DNA of 64,000 bases from Providencia rustigianii DSM 4541 (GTDB lineage: Bacteria; Pseudomonadota; Gammaproteobacteria; Enterobacterales; Enterobacteriaceae): the NCBI RefSeq assembly GCF_000156395.1, contig NZ_GG703817.1, forward strand, positions 319,409 to 383,408, read 5' to 3'. Every line of letters begins with the position of its first letter. Positions within the stretch are counted from its first letter, which is position 1. Of the stretch, positions 17,367-54,880 are shown one piece after another. The notes beneath the pieces are model-generated. The model was given only the letters and a program-made list of their open reading frames with translations. It searched no databases and was not told the DNA's origin. The position numbers and the translations under genes were made by a program.

Positions 17367-18539
17367 ATGTTCGAGTTGCTTTTTCTGCTGTTACCTGTTG
17401 CCGCCGCATATGGCTGGTACATGGGGCGCAGAAGTGCTCAACAAGATAAGCAGCAGCATGCAAATCGCTTGTCCCGTGATTACGTGACAGGCGTTAACTT
17501 TCTATTATCCAATCAACAAGATAAAGCCGTTGATTTATTCCTTGAAATGCTCAAAACGGAAGATAGTTCCGCGTTTGAAGCGCATCTTACCCTTGGTAAT
17601 CTATTCCGTTCCCGTGGCGAAGTTGAACGCGCCATTCGTATTCACCAATCGCTGGTGGAAAGCGCCGCATTATCCTTTGAACAGCGCCTGTTAGCGACTC
17701 AACAATTGGGTCGTGATTATATGACTGCGGGTGTGTATGATCGCGCTGAAAATATGTTTCAACAGCTGACGGATGAAGTCGATTTTAAACAGAGTGCATT
17801 GCAATCCCTATTAACTATCTATCAACTGACTAGTGATTGGGGCAAGGCGATTGAGACTGCCACTAAATTAGTGAAATTAGGCGCCGAAGAATTACGCGAG
17901 CAAATTGCACATTTTTATTGTGAATTGGCAACCCAAGAGCTTGCAAGTGATGATATTGACGGTGCGTTAAGTTTATTAAATAAAGGCGAGCAGGTAGATA
18001 AAAATTGTGCCCGAATTTCAATAATGAAAGGGCGTATTTTTATTGAACAAGCTAATTATGAAAAAGCGATTAACGCATTAAAGCAAGTTTATTCTCAAGA
18101 TCGTGAACTAGTGTCTGAAACGCTACCTCTATTATACGAGTGTTATCAACACACGGGGCATTCTGATGATTGGGAAGCTTATTTACGTCAATGTGTTGAA
18201 GGTAATTCAGGGGCAATTGCTGAGCTTTATCTTGCCGATATTATTGTTGAAAAACAAAATCATGAAGCCGCTGTCAGTTATATTAATGATCAAATTCAAC
18301 GGCATCCAACCATGCGTTTATTTTACCGTCTGATGGATTACCATTTAGCGGAAGCAGAAGAGGGTCGAGCTAAAGAAAGCTTGATTTTATTACGTAAAAT
18401 GGTTGGTGAGCAAATCAGAACTAAACCTGATTATCGCTGCCTCAAATGTGGTTTTACATCCCGTGCATTATATTGGCACTGTCCATCTTGCCGCTCTTGG
18501 GACACCATTAAGCCCATCCGCGGGTTAGATGGCCAGTGA
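17367..18539 (+). CDS. lapB: LPS assembly protein B (LapB, YciM)
   Basis: Membrane-anchored adaptor that presents LpxC to FtsH for degradation and so balances LPS with phospholipid. An N-terminal membrane helix ([19 protein letters not shown]) is followed by tandem TPR-like helices (about residues 35-340) and a C-terminal rubredoxin-type metal site, Cys358, Cys361, Cys372 and Cys375. Length 390 against 389 in E. coli. The TGA stop at 18537-18539 lies inside a matS site. It is transcribed with lapA, and pyrF starts about 45 bp further on. Confidence 0.96.
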
Positions 18540-18548
18540 CAACGTCAC
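18536..18548. other. matS site (MatP binding), overlapping lapB stop
   Basis: GTGACAACGTCAC is an exact match to the matS consensus GTGACRNYGTCAC, the binding site of MatP in the Ter macrodomain of enterobacteria. The site includes the lapB stop codon. Confidence 0.85.
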
Positions 18549-29496: not shown

Positions 29497-30540
29497 ATGT
29501 CCAAACCAATTAAAGTCGGGATCGTCGGCTACGGTTATGCGAGTAAAACATTTCATGCGCCATTTTTAGCGATGCTTGATGGCTTCGAATTAACAACGAT
29601 TTCCAGTAGTGACGCCAATAAAGTCAACATTGATTTTCCTGATGTAAAGGTTGTGGCAACACCAGAACAGCTATTTGCTGACCCTGAAATTGAATTAGTC
29701 GTTATTCCAACGCCTAATGATACTCACTATCCACTTGCTAGGGATGCATTGGCGGCAGGTAAACATGTGGTGGTCGATAAGCCGTTTACGTTGAGCGTTG
29801 AAGAAGCCGTTAAATTGAAAGAGCAGGCTGAAAAAGCCGGAAAATTGCTATCGATTTATCACAATCGCCGTTGGGATTCAGGTTTTCGAACAGTGCAAAA
29901 AATCTTGCGTGATGGCTGTTTAGGGGAAATTAAATATTATGAATCTCATTTTGATCGCTACCGACCGGTTGTTAGACAACGTTGGCGTGAAGCAGATATT
30001 CCCGGTGCTGGAATTTGGTATGATCTAGGTCCACATGTTATTGACCAAGTATTACAATATTTTGGAAAGCCGACAGGGATTACTGTGGATTTGGGAATTA
30101 TTCGTCCGGGGGCTCAAGCTGTGGATTATTTCCATGCAATGCTGGAATATGGCGATAAAAAAGTCGTTCTGCACTCCACCACACTCGCTGCTGCACCAAT
30201 GCCAATTTATACTATCCACGGTATGCAAGGTAGCTATGTTAAGTATGGCTTAGATACACAGGAAGATGCATTGAAAGGCGGTGCTATACCTCAAGGTGAG
30301 CATTGGGGGGAAGATCCTAACCTTGGAATTGTGACGTTGTCACAAGGCGATGACATGGTCAGCAAACCGTGGCCAAACGAAAAAGGAAATTATGGCGGCT
30401 ATTATGACGCTATTCACGATGCTATTCGTCTTGGGAAACCGAATCCTGTAACCCCAAATGAAGCTATCGATATTATGAAGCTGATTGAGGCAGGTATAGC
30501 GTCAGCACAACAAAAGCGTACCATTGAAAATATTTTCTAA
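29497..30540 (+). CDS. ydgJ: Gfo/Idh/MocA-family oxidoreductase YdgJ
   Basis: NAD(P)-dependent sugar- or inositol-type dehydrogenase of 347 residues. The N-terminal Rossmann domain begins with GIVGYGYASKTFHAPFL, and the family catalytic-lysine motif is VDKPFTLS (near residue 92-99; the usual EKP is DKP here). The C-terminal alpha/beta domain has GAGIWYDLGPHVIDQ with the expected Asp and His. The substrate is unknown. A matS site is embedded at 30331-30343. It ends at a hairpin. Confidence 0.93.
   Translation: MSKPIKVGIVGYGYASKTFHAPFLAMLDGFELTTISSSDANKVNIDFPDVKVVATPEQLFADPEIELVVIPTPNDTHYPLARDALAAGKHVVVDKPFTLSVEEAVKLKEQAEKAGKLLSIYHNRRWDSGFRTVQKILRDGCLGEIKYYESHFDRYRPVVRQRWREADIPGAGIWYDLGPHVIDQVLQYFGKPTGITVDLGIIRPGAQAVDYFHAMLEYGDKKVVLHSTTLAAAPMPIYTIHGMQGSYVKYGLDTQEDALKGGAIPQGEHWGEDPNLGIVTLSQGDDMVSKPWPNEKGNYGGYYDAIHDAIRLGKPNPVTPNEAIDIMKLIEAGIASAQQKRTIENIF
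30331..30343. other. matS site (MatP binding) inside ydgJ
   Basis: GTGACGTTGTCAC, an exact match to GTGACRNYGTCAC (R=G, N=T, Y=T). It is read as Val-Thr-Leu-Ser in ydgJ, so codon choice supports the site. Confidence 0.85.
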
Positions 30541-31627: not shown

Positions 31628-31650
31628 AATTTAGTTACAACATACAGGTG
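31628..31650 (-). other. Ter site (Tus binding), second in window
   Basis: Plus strand reads AATTTAGTTACAACATAC; the reverse complement contains GTATGTTGTAACTAAAT, identical to E. coli TerB over 16 contiguous bases. The G of GTATGTTG, the base whose partner cytosine makes the Tus lock, is conserved. By analogy the blocking face is towards higher coordinates, so forks moving leftwards would be arrested. Confidence 0.87.
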
Positions 31651-37422: not shown

Positions 37423-37458
37423 AGCCCCGATACTAACAATAGAATCGGGGCTTTTTTT
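37423..37458. terminator. Bidirectional terminator between fumC and tus
   Basis: Perfect 9-bp stem AGCCCCGAT (37423-37431) with ATCGGGGCT (37444-37452), 12-nt loop and seven T. The tus stop codon (37457-37459) overlaps the T run. Confidence 0.9.
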
Positions 37459-38365
37459 ATCGTTCGATATACAAATTTAATCTTGGAATGAGTAATTCTA
37501 CAGGTTTAGATCGTGGACGATGGCGTAGCGCAATCTGATCAACATGGTAATCTGATAATTCACCAACCGTAATATCTTCAAGACTTTTTTCTACGGCAAA
37601 GATAAGCAATGGTGTTGCACAAGGATACTGAACCTGTTTCTGACTCTCTTTATCCCATACTCTGGCAATGGGCTGAACTTTTACAGGGCGCTGGGTTTTT
37701 AAAATGGCATCATGAGGAAGAGAGCGGATCAAGGCTATTTCATTCTCCAATTGCAACTGCCAATGTTCCCTCTGCATATGAGAAGGTGTTCGACCACTTT
37801 CTAAACTAGCCTGTAATCTACTAAGCATCTGTTCTTGAGTGACTTTATTAATAACTTTTTTATTTGCCCACCCAAAGCGAACCGTATCCACATCTACAAT
37901 CGACGTGATTGTTCGATAGGTATTAAGGGTTAATAACCCATGAAGGCTCTCGCGTATAAACTCAAAACGATGAGATTCGTCAACCTGAGTAACGATATTT
38001 TTTATGCTTAGTTTTAATTGATTTATATCGGTTATTAACGATTGAAAGAGATGGTAATCGGGTAGGGATGCTTCGATAACGATGGCACCAGGCAAACGAA
38101 TTGCCGCTTTATTACTAACAGATTCAGATTTATTGTGGATAAAGAGCAACTTAAATAGCTCAATAGTATGGTTAATAGCATCGATTCCAACGTGTTTATC
38201 AACAAATATCGAGGAAACTTCGTTATGTTCATCACCTTTAAGGACTTCAGGCAAACTGAATACACAGGCCTGAATGCGGTCTTGCTTAGTTAGATGATGG
38301 CAAAACTGGTTAATGTTGAATTCTAATTGATTAAAATGAGTGATTAATTCTTGTTTTTTACTCAT
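37457..38365 (-). CDS. tus: Replication terminus site-binding protein Tus
   Basis: Monomeric protein that binds Ter sites and blocks the replicative helicase from one side. About 302 residues, near the E. coli length of 309, with the family pattern of an N-terminal helical part and a later beta-rich DNA-binding core (for example KVQPIARVW near the middle and HRPRSKPVELLIPR at the C terminus). ATG 38365 is preferred to a GTG one codon earlier, with AAGG about 8 bp upstream. A Ter site lies only 10 bp upstream of the start, so Tus should repress its own gene as in E. coli. It neighbours fumC and manA as in E. coli. Confidence 0.94.
   Translation of the reverse strand: MSKKQELITHFNQLEFNINQFCHHLTKQDRIQACVFSLPEVLKGDEHNEVSSIFVDKHVGIDAINHTIELFKLLFIHNKSESVSNKAAIRLPGAIVIEASLPDYHLFQSLITDINQLKLSIKNIVTQVDESHRFEFIRESLHGLLTLNTYRTITSIVDVDTVRFGWANKKVINKVTQEQMLSRLQASLESGRTPSHMQREHWQLQLENEIALIRSLPHDAILKTQRPVKVQPIARVWDKESQKQVQYPCATPLLIFAVEKSLEDITVGELSDYHVDQIALRHRPRSKPVELLIPRLNLYIER
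38060..38067 (+). other. KOPS-type octamer GGGTAGGG
   Basis: Match to the FtsK-orienting sequence GGGNAGGG on the plus strand, inside tus. It points rightwards, towards dif. Confidence 0.4.
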
Positions 38366-38374
38366 CACAGAGCC

Positions 38375-38397
38375 TTTTTAGTTACAACATTCAGATG
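38375..38397 (-). other. Ter site upstream of tus
   Basis: The reverse complement reads GAATGTTGTAACTAAAA, sharing the invariant ATGTTGTAACTAAA core of E. coli Ter sites and the lock guanine. It ends at the tus ribosome site and has the same orientation relative to tus as E. coli TerB. Blocking face towards higher coordinates (forks moving leftwards are stopped). It doubles as the likely tus operator. Confidence 0.9.
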
Positions 38398-43896: not shown

Positions 43897-44643
43897 TCAT
43901 TGTTTATGAACGGTTAATCCTGCGAATGTTTGACATACAGGCATCAACTCTAATGTATTCACATTCATGTGTGCTGGGAGTGTTGCAACCCAAAAAACGG
44001 TTTCAGCAATATCGTCTGGTGTTAACGCCTCAGCACCTTTATACGTATTGGTAACTTTATCATCATCCCCTTTAAAGCGCACATTGGAAAACTCGGTACC
44101 CCCAACTAAGCCCGGTTCGATATCGGTAACTCGAATTTTTTTACCGTATAAGTCTGCACGTAATCCTAAAGAAAACTGTTTTACAAATGCCTTAGTCGCG
44201 CCATAGACATTACCGCCTTTATATGGCCAAGAGGCTGCAGTTGATCCGATATTAATAATATGCCCGTGGTTTTTCTCGACCATATCCTGTAATACTTCGT
44301 AAGTCATGTTCACCAACCCTTTTGTATTCGTGTTGATCATCACTTCCCAGTCATCCGGGTTGGCATCAAAAGCAGGTTCTAACCCTAAAGCCAATCCCGC
44401 ATTATTGACTAATATATCAATATTTTTAAGGTGAGAAGGTAGGCTAGAAATTGCGTGCTGAATAGCTTTTCTATCTTGAATATCAAGGGTTAACGGATAA
44501 AATTTATCACCTAATTCTTGATGCAAAGCATTTAATCTTTCTGTTCTGCGCCCTGTACCAATTACCGTGAAATTATGCTGAATAAATTTACGTGCAATTG
44601 CCTCACCAAAGCCTGATGTTGCACCGGTTACTAAAATAATCAT
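43897..44643 (-). CDS. ydfG: NADP-dependent 3-hydroxy acid dehydrogenase YdfG
   Basis: Short-chain dehydrogenase of 248 residues, the E. coli YdfG length. YdfG oxidises L-allo-threonine and serine and reduces malonic semialdehyde in pyrimidine breakdown. Rossmann motif TGATSGFG at 6-13, NNAG near residue 81, and catalytic YGATK with the preceding IGSTAASWPYKGG serine. EPGLVGGTEFSNVRFKGD is a YdfG hallmark. A GAGGT ribosome site precedes the ATG. Single gene; 165 bp separate it from the SseJ-like gene. Confidence 0.95.
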   Translation of the reverse strand: MIILVTGATSGFGEAIARKFIQHNFTVIGTGRRTERLNALHQELGDKFYPLTLDIQDRKAIQHAISSLPSHLKNIDILVNNAGLALGLEPAFDANPDDWEVMINTNTKGLVNMTYEVLQDMVEKNHGHIINIGSTAASWPYKGGNVYGATKAFVKQFSLGLRADLYGKKIRVTDIEPGLVGGTEFSNVRFKGDDDKVTNTYKGAEALTPDDIAETVFWVATLPAHMNVNTLELMPVCQTFAGLTVHKQ

Positions 44644-44808
44644 AGGGACCTCATGTTGTTATCATTGTTTATTTATTGATTCATTCTAACTCTTTCTTCA
44701 GGAGTCTTCCAAGTCCCTTTAACTGGTTAGAATATCATCATTTTTTTAAAGAAGTAGGGAGGATATATATATAGGATCTTCTGCAATATTTAAAATAAGG
44801 TAAATGAT

Positions 44809-45759
44809 ATGAAGTTATATATAGATAGCATAAATAGCAGCCACTGCAATGATAATAGATATCTGTTATTAAAAAAATGCATAGAAAAAAATAGAGTGAG
44901 TAATATAAAAATAGATAATATAACTTCAATAAAAAATACAAATGAGAAATTAAATAACTTTGATAAACTGATTGTTCTAGGTGATAGCCTTTCAGATTCA
45001 GGAAATATTTTTAAAAGATTCAAAAGGATTTTCCCCTCAGCAATTCAATATTATAAAGGCCGATTCACCAATGGATTCACTTGGGTTGACCACTTAAGCA
45101 AACCCAATTTACTCTTTAATAAATGTGTGAATTTATCTTATGGTGGTGCTGTCGCAGGGAACTATAAGCTTAAAGAGGGATTTGCCTGCCATTTTTTGTC
45201 AAGTATTAAAAAACAGTTAAAAAAGGTAAAAACAACGAAAAACGATTTAGCGATAATGATGGCAGGTGCAAATGATTATATGACATACAAGAAAGATGAT
45301 GTGGATAGGGTGATAAAAGCACAAAAATCCAATATGACTAAATTAATAAAAAAAGGCACTAAAAATATTATTATTGCTGGAATACCTGATATCTCACATA
45401 CGCCATCAGCTAAAAGCAAAACTAACGAACAACGAGCGAGGTTAACCTCCTTAAGTATGGAGCATAATGAAAAAGTTCGTAGCTTAGTTAATGAGATGAG
45501 TTCTAAAAATAAAGATATTAAAATTCACTTTTTCGATACCAACAAAATCTTTGAATCAGTTATTGAAAAAGCCAAAGAATTACCCGGATATGTAATCGAT
45601 AAGAGCTATTACAGCGGAAGTTATGTCGAATTAAATAAAATAGATGAAATGGTCTCTGATCATAAGCATATATTTAATGATAGAGTTCACCCATCAGAAG
45701 AGGTCCATGCCATTCTTGCTTATGAGTTTGAAAATTTCATAAAGGAAAAGTTTTTATAA
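44809..45759 (+). CDS. SseJ-like SGNH/GDSL lipase-acyltransferase, putative type III effector
   Basis: 316-residue SGNH hydrolase. Block I GDSLSDSGN gives the nucleophile Ser60, block II Gly112/113 in SYGGAVAGN, block III GANDYMT with Asn155, and block V DRVHP with Asp291 and His294, so the catalytic set is complete. KGRFTNGFTW, NDLAIMMAGANDYMT, IIIAGIPDISHTP and FNDRVHPSEEVHA follow the catalytic domain of Salmonella SseJ closely. SseJ is a translocated glycerophospholipid:cholesterol acyltransferase. As in SseJ, there is no Sec signal peptide; the first 50 residues are polar and Asn/Lys/Ser-rich. Codon use is strongly A+T-rich against its neighbours, suggesting transfer. No secretion genes are nearby. 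Confidence 0.82.
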   Translation: MKLYIDSINSSHCNDNRYLLLKKCIEKNRVSNIKIDNITSIKNTNEKLNNFDKLIVLGDSLSDSGNIFKRFKRIFPSAIQYYKGRFTNGFTWVDHLSKPNLLFNKCVNLSYGGAVAGNYKLKEGFACHFLSSIKKQLKKVKTTKNDLAIMMAGANDYMTYKKDDVDRVIKAQKSNMTKLIKKGTKNIIIAGIPDISHTPSAKSKTNEQRARLTSLSMEHNEKVRSLVNEMSSKNKDIKIHFFDTNKIFESVIEKAKELPGYVIDKSYYSGSYVELNKIDEMVSDHKHIFNDRVHPSEEVHAILAYEFENFIKEKFL

Positions 45760-46131
45760 TTTGTAATAGCATAGCCATGGATGGCTTGAAAGTTAAAAAG
45801 CAAGGTACTAAAAGCACCTTAGATAAAAGTATAAAAAATACCCAGAAAAGCGATAAACAAACCAACACGATTAACCAGCCAGAACGCTGGATTTCTTCAT
45901 TTTATACTTTAGTTCGCATAATGCATATTATGTTAAATAGCATTCATGGTTATATCAGTCTTTGTTAGTTATGCGGTTTAACGTCATTCCCTACTATTTA
46001 GCCGTTATTCTTGTATAGATGAAATGCTCTCGCAAAATCTAGAGGCTGTGAGTATTGATTGCCACTAACCTTCATTTCTTGTAATCTTCGCAGGCTTTAA
46101 AAACATAAGATAATGACACAGGATAATAATA
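45760..46131. other. 372-bp intergenic region carrying dif
   Basis: No convincing gene. A 63-codon frame from 45777 has no ribosome site and runs through dif, so it is rejected. A small hairpin CCAGC (45875-45879) / GCTGG (45886-45890) followed by ATTTCTTCATTTT may terminate the SseJ-like gene just upstream of dif. The right part holds the promoter of the next gene. Confidence 0.6.
45911..45938. other. dif site, chromosome dimer resolution
   Basis: 28-bp XerCD target: XerC arm AGTTCGCATAA (E. coli GGTGCGCATAA, two changes), 6-bp centre TGCATA (E. coli TGTATA), XerD arm TTATGTTAAAT (identical). The inner halves of the arms are inverted repeats. It lies between genes and to the right of two Ter sites that face it correctly. 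Confidence 0.93.
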
Positions 46132-46422
46132 ATGAGCGAGCATACTTCCAAAGACCCATTGCATGGAATCACACTTGAAATGCAAGTGACTGCATTGGTC
46201 AATCGATATGGCTGGCCAAAATTAGGTCGTATCATCAAAATCAATTGCTTCACCAAAGATCCAAGTATCAAATCGAGCTTAAAGTTTCTTCGCAGAACAC
46301 CATGGGCACGAGCTGAAGTTGAAGCTCTCTATCTTGATATGTTAGAAGAGAGTTCAATTGATGAAACTGATTTATCCCCTACTTCACCATGGGGAAATCA
46401 CCACAATAAAAACGAAAGCTAA
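46132..46422 (+). CDS. VF530 family DNA-binding protein (DUF2132)
   Basis: 96 residues. The segment DPLHGITLEMQVTALVNRYGWPKLGRIIKINCFTKDP (38 aa in total) then SIKSSLKFLRRTPWARAEVE is the signature of the VF530/DUF2132 family, whose Vibrio fischeri member has a solved helical, DNA-binding-like fold. The cellular role is unknown. The C-terminal 20 residues are acidic then polar and probably disordered. It is the first gene to the right of dif. A plausible start context is the ATG after GGATAATAATA. Confidence 0.85.
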   Translation: MSEHTSKDPLHGITLEMQVTALVNRYGWPKLGRIIKINCFTKDPSIKSSLKFLRRTPWARAEVEALYLDMLEESSIDETDLSPTSPWGNHHNKNES

Positions 46423-54857: not shown

Positions 54858-54880
54858 AAAAGGTGACAGCGTCACCTTTT
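54858..54880. terminator. Terminator hairpin built on a matS site, after selU
   Basis: Stem AAAAGGTGAC (54858-54867) with GTCACCTTTT (54871-54880) and an AGC loop, 12 bp past the selU stop. It can serve the converging LysE-family gene. The 13 central bases are a matS site. Confidence 0.75.
54863..54875. other. matS site (MatP binding) in the selU terminator
   Basis: GTGACAGCGTCAC, an exact match to GTGACRNYGTCAC (R=A, N=G, Y=C). It is 9 kb to the right of dif, so matS sites lie on both sides of dif. Confidence 0.85.

Follow-up and report, generated by a model that had tools for sequence, protein, structure and literature searches.

A dif site between a lipase gene and a VF530-family gene

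In the 64,000-nucleotide stretch of Providencia rustigianii DSM 4541 DNA analysed here (the window), a short-chain dehydrogenase gene on the minus strand (43897..44643), which we take to be ydfG, is followed on the plus strand by a GDSL-lipase gene (44809..45759, G+C 0.30), a conserved block of sequence (45855..45910) and, abutting the block, a 28-bp dif-like site (45911-45938). The site is intergenic, as first annotated: the lipase reading frame ends at 45759, and a VF530-family gene (46132..46422, plus strand), the first gene on the XerD side, starts at 46132. The start of the VF530-family gene lies 150-245 bp from the dif start in the window and in 5 of 22 congener stretches. The dehydrogenase gene forms the left boundary of a variable interval, which in the window spans 44644-45910, holding the lipase gene and the block, and has a G+C content of 0.306 versus 0.395.

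The plus-strand site AGTTCGCATAA-TGCATA-TTATGTTAAAT comprises an XerC-binding arm (45911..45921, AGTTCGCATAA), a central region (45922..45927, TGCATA) and an XerD-binding arm (45928..45938, TTATGTTAAAT), the 11-6-11 layout of dif given in the available text of PMC3089051. With up to three mismatches to E. coli dif allowed, it was the single match in the window (0 in 100 shuffles) and in the whole 3.98-Mb genome, a draft of 35 contigs (reversed control, 0). Relative to the sequence that we take to be the E. coli reference, two of its three mismatches fall in the XerC arm and one in the centre (TGTATA in E. coli), and the XerD arm is the same. The initial annotation had described the site in these terms and had seen no second copy, which our search extends to the genome at three mismatches; a second dif or dif relic was also sought within the window and none was found.

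The surroundings of the site are consistent with a replication terminus. A GC-skew inflection, which the initial annotation had proposed as a check, was found within 14 kb of dif: the cumulative skew, followed along 398 kb of contig, peaked 13.9 kb to the left. The placement of a chromosomal dif at the terminus therefore stands, but the statement that it fixes the terminus at 45.9 kb was too exact. The motif GGGNAGGG, presumably the KOPS motif, occurred left of dif seven times on the plus strand and four times on the minus strand and right of dif zero and three times, respectively, these being few sites. A motif search located exact matS sites on both sides of dif, at 18536..18548, 30331..30343 and 54863..54875, and with up to two mismatches the window held 15 matS matches against 4.26 expected. 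Genome-wide, 14 of 15 exact matS sites lay on the dif contig, between 311 and 684 kb, with dif at 365 kb. The tus gene for the replication terminus protein (37457..38368, minus strand; PF05472, 1.9e-95) is 7.5 kb from dif, with a Ter-like site directly upstream of it (38378..38393, minus strand, exact 13-base core) and another, also with the exact core, at 31631..31646 (minus strand). Both of these good matches lie left of dif, and the three window matches at up to three mismatches equal chance (3.13), so that of the matS and Ter sites said to flank dif only the matS sites do so. The exact Ter core alone stood out, with four occurrences in the genome, three of them on the dif contig; at up to one mismatch the genome gave 11 matches against 10 in the control. 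Ter sites in facing orientations make a trap, and a facing Ter-like match was present beyond the window at C35:488209 (plus strand), 123 kb to the right. The genome also encodes XerD (392 bits, above the cut-off of the profile search), another Xer protein, which scored 275 bits against the XerD model and is taken as XerC, and MatP.

Separately, we observed a second sign change of the GC skew at ~245 kb on this contig (G000 C35), ~120 kb left of dif, and the exact matS sites on the contig were lopsided about dif, with 3 to the left and 11 to the right; a rearrangement or misjoin is possible.

Dif-like sites were located in 48 of 60 genomes (the window genome included) and in 22 of 23 congeners; for the exception, G020, another search setting gave no convincing site either. 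The central region of the 22 congener sites was TGCATA in 18, TACATA in three and TGTGTA in one. Natural XerC arms came in three variants (AGTT, GGTT and GATT), and the XerD arm was identical in all 49 dif-like sites listed, a constancy favoured by a search pattern that left the XerC-arm and central positions free. One genome of the set, G027, had dif-like sites on C1 and C2 (L063 and L064), two contigs measuring 4.7 and 0.45 Mb, which might point to a second large replicon.

We looked for signs that 45911-45938 is a plasmid-type or secondary dif-like site instead of the chromosomal dif and found nothing in favour; given that it is the sole match in the genome to three mismatches, lies near the skew turn, tus and matS and has a neighbourhood shared with congeners, this explanation is hardly credible. 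Because the sequence match, single copy, skew, matS, Tus, MatP, Xer proteins and congener sites agree, its identity as the ordinary chromosomal dif of a Providencia species is well supported. It is presumably active in dimer resolution, with the host XerC and XerD resolving chromosome dimers at the terminus through it. As first reported, the value of the site was that of routine terminus annotation.

A conserved block against the XerC arm

Alignment of the dif flanks showed conservation concentrated on the XerC side. Along the 50 bp leading up to dif, the majority base made up 0.82-0.96 of each column, compared with 0.35-0.47 beyond -70; on the XerD side its share was 0.69 over the first 10 bp, 0.54 over the second 10 bp and at most 0.46 thereafter (ungapped columns from 21 of 23 genomes, with G017 and the partly masked G019 omitted and G009 and G012 anchored at the end of an inserted element). 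The upstream edge is sharp, species diverge beyond it, and the conserved stretch measures ~50-56 bp. The block touches dif in 20 of the 23 genomes with a located dif, with an internal deletion in G022 and a diverged sequence in G018. An IS1202-like element occupies that place in the other three, the block lying just past the element in G009 and G012 and persisting as a partial block 8.7 kb upstream in G017. A 31-base core of the block was recovered with up to three mismatches in 20 of 24 genomes (reversed control, 0) and had no such match in G017, G018, G020 and G022. The interval between ydfG and dif, where both ends were visible, ranged from 137 bp (G007) to 24.8 kb (G006) and differed in content.

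Such a pattern might reflect a plain dif beside which selection maintains ancestral host sequence, such as a terminator or accessory sequence, that phages have copied. Every one of the 23 genomes in which dif was located has some form of the block (only part of it in G017, and with the deletion in G022), and within it a short hairpin, CCAGC-N6-GCTGG (45875..45890, plus strand), can form, with a z of -3.12 and 2 of 200 shuffles folding equally well. Ancestral host sequence accounts less readily for the abrupt change of upstream sequence between species at the block edge, or for the absence of block matches, at up to 9 of 38 substitutions, from eight stretches of seven other genera of the family, though G032 gave a weak block-like match (65.6% over 64 bp, E 0.12).

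The distances between blocks also argue against ancestral host sequence, since they were independent of species distance (Mantel r -0.04, p 0.63), in a comparison of 19 genomes that has low power and in which most pairs are near saturation. Block distances averaged 0.176 against 0.492 for third-codon-position species distances and were the smaller in 166 of 171 pairs. For this set G009, G017 and G019 had been omitted beforehand, G020 had no located dif and G022 was dropped for its deletion; the dif-side block used for G006 and G010 is the prophage's. Near relatives differed at 7 of 56 block positions (G010/G015, third-codon distance 0.083) and 6 of 56 (G003/G008, 0.120). In the nearest pair, G007/G023 (0.011), the block was 90.9% identical over 66 bp in a gapped alignment and the XerD flank had changed as well, suggesting that the whole neighbourhood evolves fast.

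Filamentous prophages, relics and insertion elements at dif

Tandem prophages were present at dif in 2 of 22 congeners, with one more congener masked there. G006 (L041) and G010 (L045) each carry two copies on the XerC side of dif, spaced by 10,060 bp and 8,865 bp, respectively. Proteins of the G006 prophage matched the replication initiator, ssDNA-binding, pI/Zot and pIV secretin families of filamentous phages, with pIII- and pVI-like proteins identified by weaker PHROG matches alone, and the G010 relatives of its replication, ssDNA-binding, pI/Zot and pIV proteins were 47-75% identical. Zot was detected in 3 of 25 genomes (15 congeners among the 25), namely G006, G010 and, weakly and away from dif, G012. 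At the DNA level, the G006 att region had no match among 50,697 phage records.

In both arrays the block precedes the inter-copy att site as well as dif, so the prophage-type end sequence common to the two is the sequence joined to the XerC arm in the window. Between the copies, an intact XerC arm comes after the block, then a centre that is lengthened and an XerD arm that is degenerate; a second dif-like site, inverted, lies less than 100 bp further on. The attP strand of G006, the one genome folded, formed one hairpin pairing both dif-like sites (z -6.87, 0 of 200 shuffles). The Providencia dif, that of the window included, is probably also where CTXphi-like filamentous phages of the genus attach. 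For CTXphi itself, the available text of PMC3089051 describes a folded single-stranded phage genome that an exchange of strands by XerC links to dif; the product is one functional dif, with its XerC side from the phage and its XerD side from the host, plus non-functional dif-like sequences. The host-end arm of the G010 array is AGTTCGCATAA, the one found in the window, and the present dif has GGTTCGCATAA, as in the phage att; under the CTXphi mechanism, the phage would have exchanged the XerC arm of this genome.

In G006 and G010 the host side of the inserted prophages already had the block, which therefore predates them. A block on the host side is also what ancestral host sequence would give. 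Phage end-gene relics joined to the block in two species, G015 and G021, the latter with a fragmentary secretin remnant, speak against that explanation, and on balance we regard it as unlikely. Further traces were a left att with a left end 1.26 kb from dif in G002 and, in G008, a partial block with an att-like site 0.88 kb upstream. Outside the genus, repeated secretin-like matches at ~-10.6 and -1.6 kb from dif in G032 (L065) suggest a further tandem filamentous prophage.

The elements separating block and dif in G009 and G012 are IS1202-like by their layout. The G012 element (L047, ~5.58 kb) encodes a transposase of 468 aa and, at 28.8 bits against a cut-off of 24, a CHAT-domain protein of 1268 aa, and has a 5-bp duplication, ACTTA; the one at the same position in G009 (L044) has ends related to those of G012 and a CHAT-domain protein in two frames. 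The element end lies 5 bp from the XerC arm in G012 and G017 and 4 bp in G009. The G017 locus (L052, 4130-12299) carries the same transposase (96%) beside dif, then a type III-A retron RT and PRTase pair and Gabija GajA/GajB; the left end of this element was sought and not found.

Origin of the XerC flank and comparison with known systems

No resident filamentous prophage was found at dif in the window. A search between ydfG and dif in the window genome yielded no phage gene, second block, left att junction or att relic; Zot was sought in the genome and not found, the interval had no match among phage records and the GDSL lipase none among phage families. Even so, the initial annotation, right in that no resident XerCD-using element was found, went too far in seeing no sign of one: the block matches prophage ends in two congeners, and a single full dif is the outcome of CTXphi-type integration, so that the absence of an element does not follow from it.

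It could be argued from the low G+C (0.306 versus 0.395) and the position between ydfG and dif, where other species carry prophages and other DNA, that the lipase and the rest of 44644-45910 together make up a decayed prophage or a dif-using cassette. Neither a phage gene nor a left att was found there, and in G016 a 45% identical lipase occupies the same place next to ydfG, with two genes after it that recur at the locus in other congeners. The lipase therefore looks like a resident of the locus, and we consider a decayed prophage or cassette very improbable; the lipase as phage cargo was likewise rejected, as its G016 relative sits in place. When 44644-45856 was compared with 24 genomes, besides its own genome G016 shared two pieces of ~149 and 123 bases, and G004 and G015 shared short pieces of ~50 bases, in a DNA-based search that would miss diverged lipases.

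The best reading makes the window dif a post-integration site: its XerC flank, and perhaps the XerC arm itself, would derive from a filamentous phage since lost. The block stands alone in the window genome and is older than the G006 and G010 prophages, which leaves its phage origin an inference. CTXphi-like integrations at dif would have recurred in Providencia; the block at 45855-45910, possibly with the XerC arm, would be the phage-side end of one of them, and the phage would later have been lost, its interval now being occupied by the lipase gene. Support comes from the abrupt block edge, the phage relics that adjoin the block, the exchanged XerC arm of G010 and block distances that do not follow species distance. 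Against it, strong constraint on host sequence could mimic the Mantel outcome, near relatives differ on the XerD side too, neither the exact block pattern in viral contigs nor the G006 att region in phage records had a match, and tandem prophages were seen at dif in just 2 of 22 congeners. We therefore think it quite probable that the site is a functional dif and phage attachment site bearing on its XerC flank the scar of a lost filamentous phage; the dif part of this reading is near certain, the scar part less so.

A bolder extension, possible but somewhat doubtful, would make the Providencia dif a rolling chimera, its XerC flank and arm repeatedly rewritten by phages and its XerD arm owned by the host, with nearly every species scarred. 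IS1202-like elements would then settle between scar and dif and might compete with phages; of those seen here, one carries the CHAT-domain passenger and one lies beside Gabija and retron genes.

If a phage left the flank, a site needed for orderly chromosome segregation may have its XerC side supplied by phages and renewed across the genus, and a short mark at dif could record filamentous-phage infection in genomes now without the phage. Renewal by phages would also help to explain why the XerC arm varies between species while the XerD arm was identical in the 49 sites listed. Among the literature matches listed, no paper dealt with the Providencia dif or filamentous prophages of Providencia, and none combined Providencia, dif and chromosome dimer resolution. 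The main text of a paper on Providencia defence systems (PMC12935923) contains no mention of a dif site, filamentous, inovir, XerC, IS1202 or terminus. Because prophages at dif and dif targeting by IS1202 are already published, site and mechanism are of known kinds; within the literature searched, the genus-wide mark at dif is a new observation.

The window site resembles dif of E. coli and other Enterobacterales in its 28-bp, 11-6-11 organization, XerD arm, terminus position and nearby tus and matS, and differs from that of E. coli in two XerC-arm bases and one central base. The IS1202 family, which targets dif ('dif site hunters') according to the available text of PMC10132070, includes three larger members with an extra ORF, one of which, ISKpn21, was found 5 bp from an XerC side, as are the element ends in G012 and G017 (4 bp in G009); the main text available does not name Providencia, the window genome has no such element and that of G012 is distinguished by its 5.58-kb length and 1268-aa CHAT passenger. 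Tandem filamentous prophages of the UPphi/Ypfphi type occur at dif in other Enterobacterales (PMC7307601) and, like those of the congeners, do not repeat the full dif between copies; the available main text describes no genus-wide conserved block and does not mention Providencia. Compared with CTXphi (PMC3089051, text as available), the prophages described here differ in having Providencia hosts, with integration known from sequence alone. The G006 prophage is moreover a mosaic, its assembly protein being closest to If1 (47.5%) and its replication protein to Vibrio phages (~36%). The congener prophages share with CTXphi an attP1 whose centre is lengthened and whose XerD arm is degenerate, a second, inverted site less than 100 bp away, the keeping of one full dif and, in G006, two dif-like sites that pair in the strand fold (PMC3089051, same text).
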